Assembly (NCBI GenBank): GCA_021292105.1 | Contig: CM037860.1 | Coordinates: 15,828,698-15,892,697, forward strand | Direction: 5' to 3' | Length of the DNA: 64,000 nucleotides | Origin: Anadara kagoshimensis | Lineage: Eukaryota > Mollusca > Bivalvia > Arcoida > Arcidae | In this document: piece after piece, positions 391 to 60,300 of the stretch | How the letters are laid out: each line of letters begins with the position of its first letter | How positions within the stretch are numbered: the first letter of the stretch is position 1 | Program-made: the position numbers and the translations under genes | The notes under the pieces: generated by a model | The model's database searches: none | Told to the model about the DNA's origin: nothing | What the model saw: the letters and a program-made list of their open reading frames with translations, nothing else

Positions 391-705
391 TTGTAGTTTT
401 GAATACTGTAAAACAATAAATTTTCATGTGCATGTTGTGTTTCTGCAATTCGTCAGTTAATGATAAAAAAAAGCAAAAATAATGTGTGTGAAAATGAAAT
501 TAATCAAATAAAAAGCACAGTTCACAGGTAGGAACACATGAATTTGTACATGATGAAGAACAAACCGCTGATTTTATTTACATAGTACATACCTATGACT
601 TTAAATGCGGAGATGCTCATAATGGGAAACAGCAAAAATTTCATGCTGCAAAGTGACAGACAGAAATCTCACGAAAATATCATGCTGTAAAATAAGATGT
701 TTTAC

Positions 706-3700
706 AGTACTTACCATCTTCTAATGTTCTAGTGGTAACCCTTTTGTACTTCACTTCAGTACTTACCATCTTCTAATGTTCTAGTGGTAACACTTTGTAC
801 TTTACTCCAGTACTTACCATCTTCTAATGTTCTAGTGGTAACCCTTTGTACTTCACTCTAGTACTTACCATCTTCTAATGTTCTAGTGGTAACCCTTTGT
901 ACTTCACTCTAGTACTTACCATCTTCTAATGTTCTAGTGGTAACCCTTTGTACTTCACTCCAGTACTTACCATCTTGTAATGTTCTAGTGGTAACCCTTT
1001 GTACTTTACTCCAGTACTTACCATCTTGTAATGTTCTAGTGGTAACCCTTTGTACTTCACTCCAGTACTTACCATCTTCTAATGTTCTAGTGGTAACCCT
1101 TTGTACTTCACTCTAGTACTTACCATCTTCTAATGTTCTAGTGGTAACCCTTTGTACTTCACTCCAGTACTTACCATCTTCTAATGTTCTAGTGGTAACC
1201 CTTTGTACTTCACTCTAGTACTTACCATCTTCTAATGTTCTAGTGGTAACCCTTTGTACTTCACTCTAGTACTTACCATCTTCTAATGTTCTAGTGGTAA
1301 CACTTTGTACTTCACTCTAGTACTTACCATCTTCTAATGTTCTAGTGGTAACCCTTTGTACTTCACTCCAGTACTTACCATCTTCTAATGTTCTAGTGGT
1401 AACCCTTTGTACTTCACTCTAGTACTTACCATCTTCTAATGTTCTAGTGGTAACACTTTGTACTTCACTCTAGTACTTACCATCTTCTAATGTTCCAGTG
1501 GTAACCCTTTGTACTTCACTCTAGTACTTACCATCTTCTAATGTTCTAGTGGTAACCCTTTGTACTTCACTCCAGTACTTACCATCTTCTAATGTTCTAG
1601 TGGTAACCCTTTGTACTTCACTTCAGTACTTACCATCTTCTAATGTTCTAGTGGTAACCCTTTGTACTTCACTCTAGTACTTACCATCTTCTAATGTTCT
1701 AGTGGTAACCCTTTGTACTTCACTCTAGTACTTACCATCTTCTAATGTTCTAGTGGTAACCCTTTGTACTTCACTCCAGTACTTACCATCTTCTAATGTT
1801 CTAGTGGTAACCCTTTGTACTTCACTCTAGTACTTACCATCTTCTAATGTTCTAGTGGTAACCCTTTGTACTTCACTCTAGTACTTACCATCTTCTAATG
1901 TTCTAGTGGTAACCCTTTGTACTTCACTCCAGTACTTACCATCTTCTAATGTTCTAGTGGTAACCCTTTGTACTTTACTCCAGTACTTACCATCTTCTAA
2001 TGTTCTAGTGGTAACCCTTTGTACTTCACTCTAGTACTTACCATCTTCTAATGTTCTAGTGGTAACCCTTTGTACTTCACTCTAGTACTTACCATCTTCT
2101 AATGTTCTAGTGGTAACCCTTTGTACTTCACTCTAGTACTTACCATCTTCTAATGTTCTAGTGGTAACCCTTTGTACTTCACTCTAGTACTTACCATCTT
2201 CTAATGTTCTAGTGGTAACCCTTTGTACTTCACTCCAGTACTTACCATCTTCTAATGTTCTAGTGGTAACCCTTTGTACTTTACTCCAGTACTTACCATC
2301 TTCTAATGTTCTAGTGGTAACCCTTTGTACTTCACTCTAGTACTTACCATCTTCTAATGTTCTAGTGGTAACCCTTTGTACTTCATTCCAGTGCTTACCA
2401 TCTTCTAATGTTCTAGTGGTAACCCTTTGTACTTCACTCCAGTACTTACCATCTTCTAATGTTCTAGTGGCAACCCTTTGTACTTCACTCCAATACTTAA
2501 CATCTTCTAATGTTCTAGTGGTAACCCTTTGTACTTCACTCCAGTACTTACCATCTTCTAATGTTCTAGTGGTAACCCTTTGTACTTCACTCTAGTACTT
2601 ACCATCTTCTAATGTTCTAGTGGTAACCCTTTGTACTTCACTCCAGTACTTACCATCTTCTAATGTTCTAGTGGTAACCCTTTGTACTTCACTCCAGTAC
2701 TTACCATCTTCTAATGTTCTAGTGGTAACCCTTTGTACTTCACTCCAGTACTTACCATCTTCTAATGTTCTAGTGGTAACCCTTTGTACTTCACTCTAGT
2801 ACTTACCATCTTCTAATGTTCTAGTGGTAACCCTTTGTACTTCATTCCAGTGCTTACCATCTTCTAATGTTCTAGTGGTAACCCTTTGTACTTCACTCCA
2901 GTACTTACCATCTTCTAATGTTCTAGTGGCAACCCTTTGTACTTCACTCCAATACTTAACATCTTCTAATGTTCTAGTGGTAACCCTTTGTACTTCACTC
3001 CAGTACTTACCATCTTCTAATGTTCTAGTGGTAACCCTTTGTACTTCACTCTAGTACTTACCATCTTCTAATGTTCTAGTGGTAACCCTTTGTACTTCAC
3101 TCCAGTACTTACCATCTTCTAATGTTCTAGTGGTAACCCTTTGTACTTCACTCCAGTACTTACCATCTTCTAATGTTCTAGTGGTAACCCTTTGTACTTC
3201 ACTCTAGTACTTACCATCTTCTAATGTTCTAGTGGTAACCCTTTGTACTTCACTCTAGTACTTACCATCTTCTAATGTTCTAGTGGTAACCCTTTGTACT
3301 TCACTCTAGTACTTACCATCTTCTAATGTTCTAGTGGTAACCCTTTGTACTTCATTCCAGTACTTACCATCTTCTATTGTTCTAGTGGTAACCCTTTGTA
3401 CTTCACTCCAGTACTTAACATCTTCTAATGTTCTAGTGGTAACCCTTTGTACTTCACTCTAGTACTTACCATCTTCTAATGTTCTAGTGGTAACCCTTTG
3501 TACTTCACTCCAGTACTTACCATCTTCTAATGTTCTAGTGGTAACCTTTGTACTTCACTCTAGTACTTACCATCTTCTAATGTTCTAGTGGTAACCCTTT
3601 GTACTTCACTCCAGTACTTACCATCTTCTAATGTTCTAGTGGTAACCCTTTGTACTTCACTCTAGTACTTACCATCTTCTAATGTTCTAGTGGTAACCCT

Positions 3701-4888
3701 TTGTACTTCACTCTAGTACTTACCATCTTCTAATGTTCTAGTGGTAACCCTTTGTACTTCACTCTAGTACTTACCATCTTCTATGTTCTAGTGGTAACCC
3801 TTTGTACTTCACTCCAGTACTTACCATCTTCTAATGTTCTAGTGGTAACCCTTTGTACTTCACTCTAGTACTTACCATCTTCTAATGTTCTAGTGGTAAC
3901 CCTTTGTACTTCACTCCAGTACTTACCATCTTCTAATGTTCTAGTGGTAACCCTTTGTACTTCACTCTAGTACTTACCATCTTCTATGTTCTAGTGGTAA
4001 CCCTTTGTACTTCACTCCAATACTTAACATCTTCTAATGTTCTAGTGGTAACCCTTTGTACTTCACTCCAGTACTTACCATCTTCTAATGTTCTAGTGGT
4101 AACCCTTTGTACTTCACTCCAGTACTTACCATCTTCTAATGTTCTAGTGGTAACCCTTTGTACTTCACTCCAATACTTAACATCTTCTAATGTTCTAGTG
4201 GTAACCCTTTGTACTTCACTCTAGTACTTACCATCTTCTATTGTTCTAGTGGTAACCCTTTGTACTTTACTCCAGTACTTACCATCTTCTAATGTTCTAG
4301 TGGTAACCCTTTGTACTTCACTCCAGTACTTACCATCTTCTAATGTTCTAGTGGTAACCCTTTGTACTTCACTCTAGTACTTACCATCTTCTAATGTTCT
4401 AGTGGTAACCCTTTGTACTTCACTCTAGTACTTACCATCTTCTAATGTTCTAGTGGTAACCCTTTGTACTTCACTCTAGTACTTACCATCTTCTAATGTT
4501 CTAGTGGTAACCCTTTGTACTTCACTCTAGTACTTACCATCTTCTAATGTTCTAGTGGTAACCCTTTGTACTTCACTCTAGTACTTACCATCTTCTAATG
4601 TTCTAGTGGTAACCCTTTGTACTTCACTCTAGTACTTACCATCTTCTAATGTTCTAGTGGTAACCCTTTGTACTTCACTCTAGTACTTACCATCTTCTAA
4701 TGTTCTAGTGGTAACCCTTTGTACTTCACTTCAGTACTTACCATCTTCTAATGTTCTAGTGGTAACCCTTTGTACTTTACTCCAGTACTTACCATCTTCT
4801 AATGTTCTAGTGGTAACCCTTTGTACTTCACTCTAGTACTTACCATCTTCTAATGTTCTAGTGGTAACCCTTTGTACTTTACTCCAGT
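706..4888 (-). repeat. 51-bp minisatellite of about 82 copies derived from an exon end plus its 5' splice site
   Basis: The plus-strand unit begins AGTACTTACCATCTTCTAAT. Unit starts run from 706 to 4835, a span of 4129 nt. Correcting for the indels I see (one +1, three -1) gives exactly 81 periods of 51, hence 82 copies. On the minus strand each unit is 40 nt of receptor exon 6, then GTAAGTACT and two more bases. The right-most copy is the real exon end; the left-most runs into unique intron DNA (GTAAGTACTGTAAAAC). Copies differ mainly at CTCTAG versus CTCCAG, at TTCACT versus TTTACT, and in five copies with CTTAAC instead of CTTACC, which destroys the GT of the donor. Confidence 0.95.
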
Positions 4889-5006
4889 ATCCAATCACTG
4901 ATCTATTTATAAGGGGTATTACATCAACATTTATTTTGTATGTTGTATACGGAGTTAGATTCTTTATAATATGCTGCTCTATCTTGTTACCATCCAGATT
5001 TATCTC
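4844..5006 (-). CDS. Cytokine receptor exon 6: second half of FNIII domain 2 with WSxWS-like box
   Basis: The acceptor is GTACTACAG|GAG and the donor GATG|GTAAGTAC. The exon is 163 nt, phase 0 in and phase 1 out, residues 292-346. The run L-T-P-Y-T-T-Y-K-I-N-V (E-F strands) leads to G-Y-W-S-K-V-Q-R-V-T-T-R-T-L-E-D. Y-W-S-K-V stands where vertebrate gp130 has Y-W-S-D-W-S, so the second half of the motif is changed (Val instead of Trp). A phase-1 end after the domain is usual for FNIII boundaries. The last 45 nt are simultaneously the first copy of the 51-bp array that fills the next intron; this exon end and donor are the array's apparent source. Confidence 0.8.
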
Positions 5007-8000: not shown

Positions 8001-11000
8001 AGCTTGCAGAATTATGGAACAAATATATTAGAATAAGAGTGGAGATTTCCATATCTGGCACCACAATTAGTGATAAATTCTATTTCTTGCACCACAAAAT
8101 ACATTTATTAATTTAAAAATCTATTTCAATATATTCTCAACAATGATAAACCTCTAATGTTATAAATCTTGAGAGGAAAAAAGGCCTTATTTTTTATGGA
8201 TTTGTTCAATCTTTGGTTTAAGAAATATACATTTTCTTAGTGTTGAAACAACTTGGATAAAATGCTGATTGTAACTGATAATTGCTTGGTGACACTGAGG
8301 CAATAACCTATGATAAAACAGCATCTATTTAGACACTAGACTCAAAATTCTGAGACACATCACTCAAAATCCTGAGACACTACACTCAAAATCCTGAGAC
8401 ACTACACTCAACATCCTGAGACACTACACACATAATTCTGAGACACTAGACTCAAAATCCTGAGACACTAGACTCAAAATCCCGAGACACAAGACTCAAA
8501 ATCCGGAGACACTACAGTAAAACCTCGTTATAATGCCCCTCGATAACTTTGCCACCTCGCTTATCGCCACACTATTTTGAAGTCCAAAAATCCATTTTGT
8601 TTATGTATTTCTTTATGAGCCTCCCTCGATTTATTGCCAACCCCCTTTATAACGCCAAAATTTGACTGAACAAATGGTGGCGATGAATCGAGGTTTTACT
8701 GTACACTAAAAATGCTGAGACACTAGACTCAAAATGCTGAGACACTAGACTCAAAATGCTGAGACACTGGACTCAAAATTCTGAGACACTAGACTCAAAA
8801 TCCTGAGACACTACACTTAATATTCTTAGATACTACACTCAAAATTCTGAGACACTACACTCAAAATGCTGAGACACTAGACTCAAAATTAAGAAAAAAA
8901 CTCAGAAGGCACAATCTGAGATTGAACCCAAATCCCTTATGTCATCTTGTATTTATAACTGAAGGAACATGTTTTTGATTAAACACAAACCTCAAACTCA
9001 TCAAAATCACTCCATTGTGATGAATATCGTATCCTGTATCGCTTATCCTCGATGTGATTTGAATGTGTCCATGTCAGTTTTATAAATGTTTTATTGGGTG
9101 AAGCCGCTAAACTTTGAACTTCTTTGGGTTCCACTGAAAATATGTATAAAAGTGATCAATTTTTACCAGTAACTATATTTATATTGTGTATGTGATTCAT
9201 CATCTAAAAGTGCTAATGTCTATTTTTAAAACAGGGAAGCTTCAGAGGTTGAAGAAATAAAGCTTGATTTTGTGTGGATATATGGTCAAACCTGCCTTAA
9301 AGGTCACCTCTATATATTGGCCACCTGGCTTTAAAGGCCAGTAAAAGTATCCCAATTGCTCTTTATTCATGTTATTTGAACCTGTCTATAATGGCCACCT
9401 GGCTTCAAAGGCCAACAAAAGTATATATCCCAATTGCTATCTATTCATGTTATTTGAACCTGTATATAAAGGCCACCTGCTCACAAAAGCCACTTTTACT
9501 GGTTCCCTTGGGTGACTTTTATAGACAGATTTGACACTGTAAAAATACACCACTCTGTGGCATTTTTGTTTTATATAACAACCTTTAAAAATGGCACAAC
9601 AGTGATATCATATACAAATTCTATACATTGTATATATTGACTATTTAACACACTTAATGGGAAAATTTTTACCAACTGTGTTTCATTTAAAATTAGTTAT
9701 TTTCACAACTTTTTTTAACAGTGTTTTCTCTAAAACATTAGACAAGTCATTAAGACATTACTAGTATTTGGTTCCAATGGTTTGTATTTGTTTTTGGTCT
9801 ATTTGAAATTAACAATCTGAACATATAAGGAAGTCACAATTGAAGTCCTAGCCGTACAAGTTTTATTGTCAGAAACTCTCATCTGATATTCACTCAGTAA
9901 ACTTCAATCATCAAATAATATAAGTCAAGTTTGCAAACTGATGATAAGTGAAATTTATAGAGTGAATATTAACCATGGGTTTCCGACGATGTTCAAGTTT
10001 TTATTAAATGTTTTACTGACTCTGTAAACCTGTTGGTGCAATGTTAAACAGCATTTTCATACAACAATCAACTTTTGGAGTTTTGAACCGATATGAAGAC
10101 TTACCAAACTGTCTTGTGTTAATCTTCTCACTTATAGTTTGTGAGACATTTCGAGATGCACTCTCAACAGTTATCCGGAACAGATAGGTCTCCCTTCTGT
10201 AAGCATCTTGTCCATGTCCTGCCTTCCAGGTACAAACCAAACAAGTATCATTTAGAGACTGGTTAGGACATGCTGACCATGCATCATGCCTGTTTAAAAG
10301 AAAAATATCTTGATACTTTAATATGAATATAAAAGTCTTGAGTTTTTATGGACTGATTATAAATAAATTAACAGCAAAAAATGTCTGAGGAAATTATCAA
10401 CATGTAAAAGTGAAGAAAGATTTAATAACGACGGACATGTCGAAGAGTTCAACTCCTTTTGCCTTTTATAGGTCTCGGTGACAAGGTTAGAATCCCACTT
10501 TAGCAGATCCTAGTGTCAGAAAGTTTTTTCCTTGCTGAATGCTTGGGGCTTTTCTCTGGGTACTCAAGTTTATCTCCATCCCAGAACTCACCATATAGAG
10601 ATAAAAGTTTAAGCATTTTGTTTCGGACAAACACCATTACTCCATTCACTGAAATTATTTCCAATTTCTTTTTTTACTTAATATTGACCTCTGATAGAAT
10701 TCACCCCTCAGTTTCTTTGGCTTTGAAAGATTTCTTTCATAGCATTCATTTCTGTTGACCTTTAATCTTTTGACCTTTGATACAATTATTCTATTTTGCC
10801 TTGAACCTTGACCTTAAACAGCGTTCATTTTCTTCAACATTTGATAGTTGATATTAAAATTTGATACAATTATATTCCTTTTGACTTTTGATACTGAATT
10901 AATTTATTAGAAGAACACATACGTGTATTAAGTTTTATGGTATTGAAAAGGATAGAGATGACTGTGTTGCTAATCTCAAACTATGAACACATTACCATAT

Positions 11001-14000
11001 CTCCTGGCAATAAGTATGTAAGGAAAACAGTTTTTGTTATCCATTATTTTACTTTTTATTTGATTTTTATTTTTATCTCAGTATTATGACTGTGATTAAG
11101 TTACTTTTACTATTTTTTTAAAGTCATTATTTCTCTATGTATGTAACCTCTGAGAAGACAAACAGTCATGAAAAATTAAGTGAAAGATTACCCAAGAGCT
11201 AAAAAACAAAAATCATGACATGGTAATACAGTTAGGTCAGATCAAGTCATAGTATGCTTCATGAAATGCTGGAACAGTTTTATATCAGTATGATTCTAGG
11301 TGTTTCTCCATACTGTGATGCTATGTCAAGTTGACACTTTGCCACTAATAATGAGAGTGTCATGCCATGTCACTTTGCCAAGTTTAGAGCTGAAAATAAT
11401 AACATGCAACAGGAAAAGGAACACATCCAGTGACAAAACTAGCATTCAACCCGGGGACTTTCCCAATACTAGCCGGATGCTGTTCTAACTAAGCTACTGG
11501 CCTCCCTATTGAGCACTTTCTGCTACATTTTTTCTTTCTTAATTTTTAATCAAAGCCAACTTATTGGTAGGCTACTTTTCAGTTCCGGACAAGCACCTAA
11601 CTGTTAAGTTAGAGGAAAGGAAAAATGTACAGCCACACTGGGACTCAAATTCATCCGAATAATTTTAACTTCAATTTCAAAATCTGTTTAAACATACATA
11701 TATTTTTTTAATTTTAAAGTGTAATATTACTCAATCCACTTAGCGCTCAGGGTCTGATAGCAATATAAGGAACATATGTCAGACATTTTGTTTCAATGTA
11801 CATGACTGTTTTTAATTTTTTTCATCACTATAGAAATGAAGTTAATTTTTCTTTTTGTTATGGAAGTATGAAAGAATTGGACATTTTGCACACTGAATAA
11901 TTCAAATTATGTTACATGTGCAATGTCCAATTCCTTCATAGTCCCATAACAAAAAGAAAAATTAACTTCATTTCTATTAATTCATGGACATTTTGCACAC
12001 TGAATAATTCAAATTATGTTACATGTGCAATGTCCAATTCCTTCATAGTCCCATAACAAAAAGAAAAATTAACTTCATTTCTATTAATTCAAATTATAGA
12101 ATTTTTTTCAACAACAATTTAACAATTTGAATAACAATATTGCCGTAGCAAGTAAAAAATAGGATCGCAATGGTGTAGGAATTCTAATGCCTCTGTGTGT
12201 CATCCATAACAAGATGACATCACTGAGAGCCAATCCATTCATGCAAACATAACAGAAAAAATGACCAATTAAAATGCTTGAAACAAAGGAGAATTGAATT
12301 TTACCTTACACAAAAAGTGTCTAAACAAATTCAGCATTGAGAGTGATACAAGTCACTGTGTCAACTTACAGAGCATTGGTCTACTAAATATACAAAGCAT
12401 TAAATGAATGTATGGTACCAAGCATCCTATATGGTAGAAGATCCCCTGTAAATTTCTAAAATGGTTTAACTTACACTGTCCAGTCAATTGACCAATCAGC
12501 TGATAGAACAGCATGTCGATAGAGGACTCCGAGATCCCACATACAGGTCATGGTTTGCCAGTTATAGACTTTACAATGACCATTCTCTGGTTTCTGTGGC
12601 CTATCTGTAAATACAAAATAATATTCATACATCAAAACATACTAATCAATGTGCAAATCACAATCCTAAAGCGGAGTAAAAACAAATATACTAGTTCATG
12701 TCAAAACCACAACCCTAAAGCATAGTAAAAACATTGAAACTGACAAATAAAGTTAAATATGTGAACTTCCACCAGGGAAATGAGACCGGGTTCTCCGGAA
12801 GGGTAAGTGCATCCTGTTTAGCTAGTTACACACACCATGTGTAATCAATATTGAGAATGAAAGGAACATGGAACTATGGGAAGTTAGAAATTAGAACCAC
12901 TGCCCACAAGAGAAAAAAAGTGAATAACAAACTCTTGCATACCTAAACTAATAACAGATTGACTGTCTCTTTTGAGTTTTGGACCATCATATATGTCTTG
13001 AGGGGTGTAAAGGTTATTGGCTCAAATCCCACTTGCACAGTTCAAAGTGTAAGGGAGTTTGTTAATTTGCTTGCCAAAGGTAGTTTGTTTTTTATTTGGT
13101 CACTCCAATTTTTGCCTTCCAAGACCTGACTGTCTCAATATAAATGAGAATCTTGTCTAGGGTGTAAAATACCATTACAATAACCCCACACCATCTGTTT
13201 GAGTAATAAGCTTTTAATGCGCTCCAAATCATCTCAGAGATTTTACTTAGAACTGAATCTAGGCAATAAAACTTCAGGGATTAAGCTAAAAATTTTGAGT
13301 AAGGGGCCCAGTTCACTTTTCAAGAGAAGTTGCAATAGCAAAACATGACAAAAATCTTTAGAACTTTGGGGGCACAGACTTTCTTGGTACTACTGGGCGC
13401 CTGTTAATCGCAATCCCTACAACTTGTCCAGTGCTGCCTGATTGTGTATTATCTTTATAACAGCCTTGATAATCACTCTAATGTACATGATTTGTAGGAC
13501 AAATGAGTTAAAATAATTTCAAAATAATAATTAAGTTAGTCATATCAAAAATATCTGTATGGATGTTTTAAAGTGATTTAATCACCTCTTTATCAGTAAA
13601 ACATGCATGGTGACTCAATCAGTCAATCATCTAAATGTAGATAGGGTCATTATTTGAACAATTTAGGTGTAAATCAAGTGTTTTATCAAACACATGCACT
13701 GTTCAGGAGTTAAGTAAAAATTTAAGTTTTTTGGGTTTTTTTATTGTTTTTTTTTGCATAAACCCTCCTTCAAACCTTGGCTTTATATTTGGAGTCTCAT
13801 ATTATTTCAATTAAATTTTGGAACATAGCAAGGGAGAGAGAGAGAGAGAGGAGAAAAAAGATTTTATCAAACATGAACAATTAAGGAGCTGTGTAAAAAC
13901 CTCCTCGCGTTATTTGGAATGATGGAGTAAAAAATCACCTAAATAAGTTAAGTGGCTCTAAAATTAACTTTATACATATATTTGATATTAAAAGTTCAAG

Positions 14001-20000: not shown

Positions 20001-23000
20001 AGAATTTACATATACTTTTTTTTAATTTAATCATAAAATACATTCAACAAAATGGTATACGAGACAATACCATTTTTAAAATGTATTTTATGATTAAATT
20101 TAAAAAAGCATATGACAGAACGACGAAAATTAAATCGCTTTTTTCGCATGCGGACAAGTGCAGTGAAAGGTCTTAGGCTTGAAGGCGAAAAAAACATGAA
20201 CAGCTCTGTCGCTTTAACAATCGTGTCATACCAAACATGCCAGCAAAAGTCTATGATTACTGAAACTAGTATAATGATTTTCTGATGACGGTTGAGTTGA
20301 GGACATAAATTATGTCTAACAGTTACTGTGAATTAAAAAATTAGGATTAGTTATCAAAACACACAAAAAACTGTCAATAAAGTTAAGAATTTCAAAAAAA
20401 AAATCAAAAGTAAAAAAAATCTTACAATCAATTTTGATGTATTTGTAATTAATTGGACAAAATGTACTATTGTCGCTGTATCTACAACTATAACTCTGAT
20501 ATTGACGCTGTGGATAAGAACGTAAAATGTCTTCCTTTATCAGATCAGTCATCGTAAAACTCATCATGCCTTGTTTCGATTCAACGGGGACAGTTTTGAT
20601 TTTTCTGGCAGTTTTACTATCTTTTGTTGTAAAAAATACTTCCGCCACCTCAAAACGGTTACTAAGTGATGAAATATTAACCATGCAGCGTAACGTGAGG
20701 ATTTCACCAGCAAATAATGTCATATCAGCTTCTGGATATATCTCTACAACAAAGCAGAAAGGCAATGATTTAAACCACGATCTCTCATATAATCATGCAC
20801 CATCTACATAATGACTAAACTAAACAAAAAACACTTCCTGATACAATGGCTATAATGAAAAGCACAACTAAATTAAAAAAAAACACAAACGGAAAAACAA
20901 GTTCAGATATATAAACGAATGCAATTTCAGTTACGTGAACCTGCGAAAGTAGTTATAAGAGATAATTTTTTTTGGAATAACTCATTATTTTGAAAATTAA
21001 TTGAATAAGAAATCAATTTGTAAATATAAACCTTAACTGAAAAGTTTAAAAAAATTATAATCTAGGGGTCAAATGATGCTGTAAAAGGCTATTGTATATT
21101 CATGACTAGAAGGCCATAAACATGTCTTAAATAGAAGTCAAATGATGCTGTAGAAGGCCATGGGCATTTCTTAACTAGATGTCAAATGATGTTGTAGAAG
21201 GTCATGGACTTCTCGTGACTAGAGGTCAAATGATGCTTTTGAAGGTCATGGACATTTCTTGACTAGAGGTCAAATGATGTTGTAGAAGGTCATTGACATT
21301 TCTTGACTAAAGGTCAAATGATGCTGCAAAAGGTCATGGACATGTCTTGACTAGAGGTCAAATGATGCTGTATAAGGTCATGGTCATTTCATGACTAGAG
21401 TTCAAGTGGTGCTGTAGAAGGCCATTGGATATTCATGACTATAGGTCAAATGATGCTGTAGAAGGTCATGGACATTTCTTGACTAGAGGGCAAATGATGC
21501 TGTAGAAGGTCATGGACATTTCTTGACTAGAGGGCAAATGATGCTGTAGAAGGTCATGGGATTTTCATGACCTGAGTTCAAGTGATGCTATAAAAAATAT
21601 GTACTATTCATGACTAGAGGTCAAGTGATGCTGTAAAAGTCATGGACTCAAGGAAAGCTGCAGAAGATGATGGACTATTCACGACTAGAGGTCAGGTGAT
21701 GCTGTACTAGGCCATAGCAATATGATTTTAGGTCGTGCGATGCTGTATCAGGTCGTGGCATGTGTGTAGAGGTCAAGTGATGCTGTACTAGGTAATGACG
21801 TATGACTTTAGGTCAGATGTTGCTGTACTAGGTCATGGCATATGACTTTAGGTCGTGCGAGGCTGTATCAGGTCGTGACATGTGTGTAGAGGTCAAGTGA
21901 TGCTGTACTAGGTCATGGCGTCTGACATTAGGTCAGGTAATGCTGTAAGAGGTCACGGTGTATGACTTTAGGTCAGTTAATGCTGTAATAGGTCATGGCG
22001 TATGACTTTAGGTCAGATGTTGCTGTACTAGGTCATGGCGTATGACTTTAGGTCAGTTGATGCTATACTAGGTCATGGCATATGACTCAAGGTCAGATGT
22101 TGCTGTATTAGGTCATGGCGTATGACTTTAGGTCGGCGTATGACTTTAGGTCAGATGTTGCTGTACTAGGTCATGGCGTATGACTTTAGGTCTGTTGATG
22201 CTGTACTAGGTCATGACATATGACTAGAGATCAGGTTATGCTGTAGTAGGCCAAAGCGTACGACTTTATATTAGGTCAGGTGATGTGGGAAATGACTAGA
22301 CACCAGGTGATACTGCACTAGGTCATGGCGCATGACGCCGGGTGATTAACTTTTTAAATCAACCTTTTCTACAATGGAGTCATTGGAAACAATTTAAACA
22401 ACAAATTGTTTGTGTATGAAGGGGTTATTCAAAAGAATGCATTGTAAATTTTGCAAATAAAAGTATCTATATTTAAACAGAATATAATCAGCATATGATA
22501 TGACGACCTTTGTTAATTACACCATAATGATTACATGTATAACCATGTGTCATGCAGAAAATGCGCCGTAAAATAATATCTATAGATAAGCCATGCAGTC
22601 CATGCAATAACTGACAGTACATTCAAACTAAATTTACATAAATATAATTACTGCACTGATGACTTCCTTATCAGGTTTATATACAGTAAATATCCTCAAA
22701 GTTCAACCTCTAAAAATTAATACATATATTTTCTTTAAAAAAAAGTCATTTCTATCAAGTTGTAAGTGACTGTCTCTAGATAAGACCTATATATATGACA
22801 TTTATGTAAAGTTCAACGCCTAATGATACCCAGACTTTAAAAGACCTGACGAAATCCAAAGATTGAAGCTCCAGGCGAGATTTTTTGTATTCACAAAATA
22901 AAGTTATTCTAAAGACGAAGCCAAAATAAGAAGAAAGAAAATAAAAAAAAATATTTTATTTTAATGTTTGAAATATTAGGATATTTACTGTACCATGTTG

Positions 23001-57300: not shown

Positions 57301-60300
57301 TCAAAGTGTGTATCAAATCAAATTATTGACCAACCAACCTCCCTGATATTTTGATTTGTTTTGCATATATGTTAAAAAATAAATATCTATTGGTGGAGGG
57401 TACTAATTTGCTATAATGCAGTATGTAATACTTATCAATATCACAGCACTGTACTCACCATTGGTCTGTTTTTAACTGTGAAATCTCTTTATAAACTTTA
57501 CTCCTTCTGATTGAAGTCAATAGCCAGATAAAATTTTTCATCCTCAGAAGTGTTTTGAGCAATTGGAAATAGAGAACCATGTACATGTATTATATCAATG
57601 GGACTTTTTCAAACAAATTCATTCTTGAAGCGCTTTTTAAGCGGATTTATAATTTTCCATCCAATAAGTGAACAAGTAAGTCAGCTCCATTTTATAAGAC
57701 CCAAAAATGAATCTTAACTATTTGGAGTTGGTGGGCCTAGCTCAGCTTTGTAAAGAAGTTTTAACTAAGAAATAATAAATAGACAGCAGTCTAGACCAGG
57801 TTGGGGTTTGAACCCACAACCTCCCACATATGAAGTGAGCACTCTACCAACTGAGCTACCACAGTAGTTTTAAAGATCAGAGAGTGGGAAGGAGGTAGTA
57901 ATCATCTCAATAGATGAAGACCTATATCTTAACAGAAATTTGTAATCAAGTATCATACTAACCATATACCATCACAAGCTAGGACCAGGAATTCATCCCC
58001 TTCCTCCAGTGTTGTAGTCTGTATATCAGGCAATGCTGTTATCATCTGTTCTCTTGCCGATAGTGTATTATTCTGTTTGTATAAATGGTCCCCTAAAATG
58101 TTAAATAAAACTGTCCCAATACATGTTTGTCTACAACTTAAACCATAGCAATGTGAACACAGTAAATGTTTGGTCCATCATCACATGAATAAGGATTAAC
58201 TTATGGTCTTTCTTTTTAATTCTCATCTCTAGGTACAAATTGCACTCTTACAGATCAGTGTGAGAAAGTTCTCAGTTTGCTTGCCAAAAATTGTAGGTTT
58301 TCTTCAGAACTCCAGTTTCCTCCACTATACAAGAACTGACTCTCTCAATATATGTTGAAGGATCTTGACTGAAGAGTAAAACACTACTATTACAAATAGG
58401 TCTCTAATTTTCAGGTGATCAACAACAAAATTAACAGAGTTCCTACAGACATTTGGACTCAAAATTTAAGGACTTTTTAGGGTCTTTTCAGGGCCTTATT
58501 TGCAAATTTAAGGCCTAATCAGAGGGACAATTCTAGCAAAAAAATATTTGTGCAAAGGCAATTAAATCAATAAAACAATTATTTATGTGTCCAAAGTAAC
58601 GACACTTGAAGTGGAGGTTGAAGTTGGGCATTCGCTTGGGTCAGGTACTTTTAAAAAGGTACATTTCAACGAACTTATCAATTAATTATATATTTATATC
58701 AGTCTATTTGCAACTACTTAAAATTGAAATACAGACACCAAACTGGCCAAATTCAAGGGGTTTTTAGGGCCTTCGGGATAAATTCAAGGGCTTTTTAGGG
58801 TCAGACTTGTTTTTAGGGTCTTTTTAGGGCAAACTTCAAAATTTAAGGACTTTATCAGGCCTGTAGGAACCCAATTTACTTAATCACTATTAAACCTTCA
58901 TTTGTGTTCTCACATGAAATGGTAAAAAAAGTCTTTAACAAATTGCTGACAAAACAAAGATAAAAAAGAACAAACTTCTTTCCCTTTTGAAAAGTTAACC
59001 ACTGTCTTGAAAAACTCCACAATTGACAGGCCAAAAAATAGTTTACTTACCAATCGCCCTGGATAAATTAAGTCCCCCATTGACACGTCCATCAGCGGTC
59101 ACTTTCCCTCCAGCTGCTTCGATGCGTTTTCTCTCAGGTTCATCCTCGGGTTTATGATCAAATGATAAGTCTATAGCATTCCCTTTTCTACATAAGACAC
59201 AGCGTGAATCACCAGCATTGGCTACATAAACTTCTTTATCTTGTATTAATACTAATACTGCAGTACAGCCACTATCTGAACCAGGCTACAAATATACAGT
59301 AGAACTTCAATACATTACCACCATTTATTTAGTCAAATTTTGAATTTATATGGGAGGATAAGGAAGAAAACCATACAAGAAATGGATTCTGGGACTTAAA
59401 AAAAAAGAGGCAATAATCAAGGTACCAAAGTTATAAAAGGGAATTAAAATGGGGGTTTTACAACTTATAAGGATTTTTTTCCTCAAATGAACAAGGATTT
59501 CCATTAAAATTTTCACTCCTTTCCATTGTTAAATTGTCTGCTTTATATCAAAGTCTAATTCCTTGCTGCTAAGGAAAACTTATAACAAGAGGCCCAATAG
59601 GGCCTGTACCGCTCACCTGGGCCGTTTACAGCACAAAAACACAATAAATACTACATTTAAGGAGCAATAACTCTGATGTGGATATTTAGATATTTATGAA
59701 ACTTGCTACTCACATCTGTGACCTTGACCTTTTAACCAATGACAGAGATTTATCAGGGTCTTTTGGGAAAAGGCCCTAAACTAAAAATTGGGAAAACTAA
59801 CAACTTTGTGCTCATTTTGGGAAAACTTTGACATCATTTTTTATGCCATTAATAATTAAATCTAATGCTTTTAGTTTGAGTTTGTCATCATCACATTTTG
59901 CCGGTTTACTTCCAATCTCAATGCCAGAAGTCAGTTTACTCATGCTCTTGGAAGCCTTTGATGTAGAAGCGGTATTTTCATCTTGCTTTGGAGATGTTGT
60001 TTAAAAATAATCTAGGATCTTTTTACTTAATTTTGCTTTCACAAAATTTACTTCTGTTTTCCTTTAAAAACAACACAATTTTCTAATTGGGAATTTTCTC
60101 AGCTGAATTTGGGAAAAAATCAACATTTTTTCCTTTGGGAATGGGGCCTTATTTCGGCCCTAAATAGGCCCTTGATAAATCCCTGAATGACAATAATCTA
60201 TATGTTAAAATGATCATTGCATCAATACCAACAATATTCCAATATACATGCCTATACAAAAAGTTCATAGTTTTCGAGTTAATAAACCTTTCTGGTATTG

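Follow-up and report, generated by a model that had tools for sequence, protein, structure and literature searches.

An 82-Copy Minisatellite of an Exon End and Its Predicted 5′ Splice Site in a Cytokine-Receptor-Like Gene of the Bivalve Anadara kagoshimensis

Introduction

Minisatellites that lie across exon–intron boundaries have been described in amphioxus, where they are called mirages and occur in Adh3, in the globin genes BflGb6 and BflGb9, in TnC and in PGBD5, and the excerpts of these reports used here state that they do not interfere with regular splicing (PMC3087553, PMC3902484). In human, the minisatellite of IFI6 (6-16, G1P3) supplies multiple splice donors, as stated by the title of Turri, Cuin and Porter 1995 (PMC2572611, PMC4526556); one citing paper mentions the use of two downstream repeat donors and three mRNA species (PMC4526556), and the repeat has elsewhere been cited as interfering with splicing (PMC3618361). 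Excerpts on human genes in segmental duplications indicate that minisatellite expansion at exon–intron boundaries can change splicing, the gene-affecting repeats averaging four units of 30 bp and being discussed as intron gain (PMC2812944), and in a further reported case a tandem duplication across an intron–exon boundary copied the splice signals and made a new intron (PMC4974935). Here we describe an array of this kind in the bivalve Anadara kagoshimensis, in a stretch of 64,000 nt that we refer to as the window (assembly GCA_021292105.1, contig CM037860.1, C4:15828698-15892697 in our contig numbering). In this array, the end of a predicted exon on the minus strand, exon 6 of a cytokine-receptor-like gene, has been amplified together with the 5′ splice site that follows it.

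As in the amphioxus mirages, the units straddle the (here predicted) exon–intron boundary of the host gene, many of them carry splice signals, and they are homogenized with block turnover. The array is thus a large new case of an already described class, the boundary minisatellites, and a preliminary description that had presented it as having no counterpart in the literature is contradicted by the amphioxus mirages (PMC3087553, PMC3902484) and by human IFI6 (PMC2572611, PMC4526556), as far as the excerpted texts go. Searches for a bivalve example and for repeat-borne splice sites brought up nothing of this size among the titles and abstract openings listed for open-licence papers. The copy number differs, with 82 units and 77 donors here as compared with 6 and 3 units in the two haplotypes of BflGb6 and three units of 108 bp in PGBD5, and it exceeds that of any boundary minisatellite with a known copy number in the portions of the reports compared (PMC2812944, PMC3087553, PMC3902484). 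Also unlike what is reported of the mirages, every distal GT donor here would lead to a stop codon. With IFI6 the locus shares a minisatellite of one gene that carries many donors, but its units are 51 bp long and a transcript spliced from a distal donor would soon reach a stop. The units of IFI6 are said to be 12 bp. Relative to the boundary repeats described for human segmental duplications there are about 20 times as many copies, located beside an existing intron, and unlike the case in PMC4974935 no new intron is evident. The acceptor-like sites of the unit score −1.8 or less in the 12 commonest AG contexts listed, as compared with 2.3 for the exon 6 acceptor, and we reject the unit as a small exon of its own (splice-site scores throughout are approximate matrix scores).

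Results

Array Anatomy

Tandem Repeats Finder (TRF) reports the array (Table 1) with a period of 51, 82.1 copies, 97% matches and a score of 7822. Cut at the unit start, it gives 82 units, 78 of which are 51 nt and three 50 nt long, while the left-most has a 1-nt insertion; they represent 21 distinct types (counted with the last unit trimmed to 51 nt), and their mean pairwise identity is 97.3%. On the minus strand each unit consists of 40 nt matching the end of exon 6, followed by 11 nt, GTAAGTACTRG, which are the first nucleotides of the intron. As exon 6's own copy is counted among the 82, there are 81 extra copies. The right-most copy runs on into the rest of exon 6, and the left-most, whose last exon-like base is at 715, runs into unique sequence. 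In copy number, in the makeup of the unit and at both edges the array is as the preliminary description had it. The further claim that every unit holds an intact splice site is correct for most units only: GT is kept in 77 of 82, with 75 reading exactly ATG/GTAAGT (the slash marks the boundary) and two ATG/GTAAGC, and the other five have TT.

The last triplet of the unit is TAG in 40 cases, TGG in 38 and TGA in three, the left-most unit being cut elsewhere. The unit at the intron edge has a private insertion, and the only variants of the unit at the exon edge are ones found in a few other units. A 27-nt core of the unit occurs 80 times in the window; the mean over 100 shuffles was 0.00.

Predicted Gene

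The acceptor of exon 6 reads ...TACTACAG/GAG and its donor ATG/GTAAGT. We refer to the latter as donor 1. Upstream, exons 2–5 were picked from listed candidates by matching phase; exon 1 was not found, and the exon numbering is that of the preliminary description. For downstream exons, the sequence to the left of the window was read for 30 kb. Joined from donor 1 to the exon 7 candidate found there, exon 6 continues in phase as ...TRTLEDVPGKNPKLLPYF without a stop, the product including ...RTLEDVPGKNP..., and the continuation through exon 7 reads ...RTLEDVPGKNPKLLPYF. Altogether nine exons are predicted, of which the window holds five and the downstream sequence four; their phases match and they contain no stop over 530 codons, the exons having been chosen among listed candidates. 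A match of their product to a solved tandem-FN3 chain (6tpw) extends over the predicted junction of exons 6 and 7 and supports this join. A 52-nt candidate for exon 7 at 240–189, the only one in phase within the window, was rejected, as it had no support and the candidate at −1236 is better. Further to the left there are a membrane-spanning-like exon and open exons that contain tyrosines, which by eye only fit a receptor.

Exons 5 and 6 joined score 32.5 bits against Pfam fn3, and the five exons of the window joined score 30.9 bits, both above the cut-off of 25, by which the second domain (D2) of the predicted module has an FN3 (fibronectin III) fold. Pfam gave no Ig match for exon 2. The five-exon product matched six gp130 chains (E 0.00088–0.0023) with residues 107–301, which cover both domains of the cytokine-receptor module, and other chains less well, with E = 0.014 for IL-10 receptor beta; a match of the predicted product to the LIFR_D4 profile was below the cut-off. 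Its WSxWS-like box reads GYWSKVQ, which we take to be a degenerate form of that motif. The in-phase joins and the fn3 scores agree with the earlier placement of exon 6, and together with the gp130 matches they support an FN3-containing, cytokine-receptor-like gene; there is moderate evidence from these comparisons that it encodes a gp130-like receptor.

Table 1. Features of the locus in window coordinates; negative positions lie to the left of the window.
Feature	Position	Strand	Remarks
51-bp donor array, 82 units	705..4889	−	TRF bounds; first unit is exon 6's own last 40 nt; 77 GT, 5 TT
Exact 463-nt repeat, offset 459 bp (9 units)	2283..2745		Block duplication within the array
In-frame TAG just past donor 1	4833..4835	−	Read from the sequence
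Donor 1 (GT of ATG/GTAAGT)	4842..4843	−	The ancestral 5′ splice site, predicted to be the functional one; joins exon 7 in phase
Exon 6 (predicted), 163 nt	4844..5006	−	Phase 0 to 1; ends ...TLED G/GT; C-terminal half of FN3 domain, D2 of cytokine-receptor-like module
Exon 5 (predicted)	8991..9133	−	Phase 2 to 0; N-terminal half of exon 6's FN3 domain; best of 9 candidates listed
Exon 4 (predicted)	10105..10289	−	Phase 1 to 1; cytokine-receptor D1 part
Exon 3 (predicted)	12475..12604	−	Phase 2 to 2; cytokine-receptor D1 part
Exon 2 (predicted)	20426..20743	−	Phase 2 to 1; Ig-like by eye only
Exon 7 candidate	−1236 to −1318	Same as exon 6	In phase; outside window
Exon 8 candidate	−1543 to −1780	Same as exon 6	In phase; outside window
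Two further candidate exons past exon 8	−2446 to −2582; −3557 to −3752	Same as exon 6	In phase; outside window

Consequence of Distal Donor Use

Every one of the 76 distal GT donors reaches the same first stop codon, giving a product that ends ...TLEDGKY (G-K-Y and then the stop). Because all of them run into this one stop, longer in-frame isoforms of the IFI6 type are excluded on this sequence.

Uniqueness of the Unit and Homologues of Exon 6

The assembly searched comprises 1.115 Gb in 36 contigs. When a 103-nt unit probe was compared with the whole of it, all 38 match rows fell inside this array, and no match to the unit was found outside it by a search that skips very common words and scores only the best candidates. 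An FN3-domain search of the genome gave four matches at E up to 0.01, two of them being this gene's own exons 5 and 6 and the remaining two lying elsewhere (9.0e-4 and 0.00713). One of the latter (L038) is a relative of exon 6 with 38% identity that ends ...KTLED G/GTAATA and is followed by a GT/AC microsatellite; a TAG reported inside the match fits its acceptor TAG, and translation of the exon proper meets no stop. The other (L037) corresponds to exon 5 in a second homologue; in the neighboring stretch (L039) this homologue has a relative of exon 6, which has 35% identity and ends ...TKKD G/GTATGT. Neither of these two diverged homologues has an array at the exon 6 boundary. Since both share the boundary and the phase, the array is, as judged from the two homologous sequences, particular to this gene copy. 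A separate array of 55 bp and 17.6 copies (L039, 810–1776) is located in the intron before that homologue's exon 6 relative.

Tandem Arrays in the Genome

As a background we took 10 kb at each of two fixed places per contig from C1–C10 (20 stretches, 200 kb) and counted arrays with a period of at least 20 and a length of at least 150 bp, dropping overlapping TRF rows and shorter arrays. The sample holds 21 arrays, 13.8% of bases, including one 10-kb stretch that is wholly satellite, and the window holds 19, 22.9% of bases. The unit donor described here scores 10.7; none of the 21 sampled arrays has one of at least 10.6 and two have one of at least 9, and the strongest unit donor in the other 18 arrays of the window scores 9.9. 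Because arrays are common in this genome, it is unsurprising in itself that one has landed on an exon end; what is surprising is its size and uniformity. A survey for other exon-edge arrays by way of kinase exons gave 141 matches and no loci. The wholly satellite stretch of the sample (L028, 1–10000) consists of a 75-bp satellite of 134.5 copies.

Discussion

When the array is collapsed in silico, what is left is a normal exon and donor, ...GGATACTGGAGTAAAG...GAAGATG/GTAAGTACTGTAAAAC. In this collapsed sequence the pentanucleotide TACTG occurs twice, once at each flank and exactly 51 bp apart; by a hand estimate the chance of such a 5-bp junction match is about 1%. As the unit matched nowhere else in the genome, exon 6 is its likely source, and the TACTG pair fits a microhomology-mediated tandem duplication followed by expansion. 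We suggest that a 51-bp segment running from the end of exon 6 across its 5′ splice site would have been duplicated between the TACTG in the exon and the TACTG in the intron, and that the pair could then have grown to 82 units by unequal exchange or slippage, to which duplications of whole blocks were added later; the exact 463-nt block at a nine-unit offset shows that block duplication did occur later. The near-identical local contexts of the donors would leave the spliceosome little except position to choose by. Use of the exon-proximal donor 1 would keep the receptor frame into exon 7, the remaining 81 units leaving as intron in productive transcripts, and occasional use of a distal donor would add G-K-Y and a stop, resulting in a degraded message or a truncated ectodomain. 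Grouped in our own way, the columns that vary among copies are two of six in the donor, nine of 41 in the exon-derived part and three of five in the remaining intron. We thus reject the idea that selection keeps the donors, as donor columns vary as often as the others; this variation would fit neutral turnover. Our best explanation of the locus overall combines duplication at a microhomology, expansion, use of donor 1 and removal of the array as intron, without a selected role, and we give it a probability of roughly two in three; that donor 1 is used and the array spliced out appears, by itself, to hold at about two chances in three. The array is most likely a by-product of repeat turnover.

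Several results weigh against this explanation, some concerning the gene and others the choice of donor. Exon 6 alone matches Pfam fn3 only weakly (E = 0.012, below the cut-off), and its acceptor is moderate. The best solved match of the nine-exon product is RPTP-F (6tpw, tandem FN3; E = 5.9e-7, residues 186–405, thus including residue 312, where exons 6 and 7 meet), its match to gp130 is weaker than this (E 0.0022), and in Pfam it shows a single fn3 stretch, from exons 5 and 6, with no separate domain match for exons 7–10. Because RPTP-F is the best match and exons 7–10 have no Pfam domain, we are less sure of the predicted receptor class than of the FN3 domain. Experiments with duplicated donors often favor the intron-proximal site. 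In two 150-nt stretches that were folded, RNA folding z-scores were 0.07 around donor 1 and −0.76 in the middle of the array; as neither stands out from shuffles, folding gives no reason to favor donor 1, and we found nothing in these stretches that would suggest RNA structure hiding donors. Finally, given the use of downstream donors in IFI6 that the citing paper describes, donors 2, 3 and onward might be used here as well (PMC4526556).

This last point leads to the alternative that the array is functional, namely that splicing is drawn to distal donors so that some transcripts end in G-K-Y and a stop, the receptor made from them being truncated and soluble or the transcripts destroyed, with array length setting the output. 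In favor of this are the 75 of 82 units that share the nine-base site of donor 1 in nearly the same context, the one identical truncated ectodomain to which all 76 distal GT donors lead, and the several repeat donors used in IFI6 according to the citing paper (PMC4526556). On the other hand, the donor columns are as variable as the rest, the stop stems from a common variant (the TAG of 40 of the 82 units) for which selection is not required, and the amphioxus mirages are reported, in the excerpts cited, to leave splicing undisturbed (PMC3087553, PMC3902484). We regard a function of this kind as unlikely, although it is the alternative we take most seriously. Its more specific form, in which the array is a length-tunable splice rheostat whose competing donors set, by the array length of each individual, the ratio of membrane to truncated or degraded receptor, we consider distinctly more doubtful. 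It is improbable, to a still greater degree, that the gene is dead or exon 6 bypassed, with the array lying in a locus undergoing decay. Skipping of the 163-nt exon 6 would shift the frame, and in a gene that is broken nothing would stand in the way of such an array; but the nine exons, chosen from candidates as they were, join in phase without stops, and the FN3 domain split over exons 5 and 6 scores above the Pfam cut-off.

An exact 463-nt block repeat within some 4 kb of 97% identical units is hard to assemble, and the copy number might be an artefact of false expansion or collapse. We see little room for this, since the units contain scattered private variants, both edges enter unique sequence and the contigs inspected measure tens of megabases; the doubt about assembly touches the exact copy number only and not the existence of the array. 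Least credible of all is that the unit is a satellite or transposon from elsewhere that invaded the end of the exon. The abundance of tandem arrays in this genome, 21 of them reaching 150 bp or more in the 200-kb sample, speaks for this, but the search of the 1.115-Gb genome, which skips very common words and scores the best candidates only, found no match to the unit outside this array, the exon-derived part encodes an FN3 end that a homologue also has, and the sequence left after collapse is that of a normal exon with its donor. We consider invasion largely refuted by these comparisons, and the origin of the unit from the exon, as proposed in the preliminary description, remains the most likely.

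The array can be viewed as a natural competition assay, in which 75 donors, identical over nine bases and nearly so in their flanks, follow one another about 51 bp apart. As they are near-identical, any preference among them should therefore come from position, exon length or kinetics, and the array could reveal which one a cell chooses when many splice sites are almost identical. The locus also suggests that an exon edge can be amplified in an array-rich genome with the reading frame of the gene kept open.

Other Features of the Region

The intron that follows exon 6 contains further elements. Just past the array, the minus strand at 593–645 has a 53-nt stretch between an acceptor scoring 5.0 and a donor scoring 8.4, which, if read in phase after exon 6, would stop immediately and by eye resembles a poison exon. 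At 121–206 there are four copies of a 21-bp unit with a donor-like CAG/GTAAT in each copy on the minus strand; no exon was recognized there. A second array in the same intron, of 25 bp and 31.6 copies, is found between the donor array and exon 7 at −1131 to −346. Within one of the subsequent introns of the receptor gene, from −8030 to −13017, open stretches resemble by eye the remnants of a reverse transcriptase. In the window as a whole, the only Rfam match is a tRNA-like one above the cut-off at 57799–57860 on the minus strand. In another contig, the region C2:37.37-37.48 Mb contains many protein-kinase open frames, 19 of them with the same top score and several about 1.84 kb apart, which may be a tandem kinase gene array or a macrosatellite.

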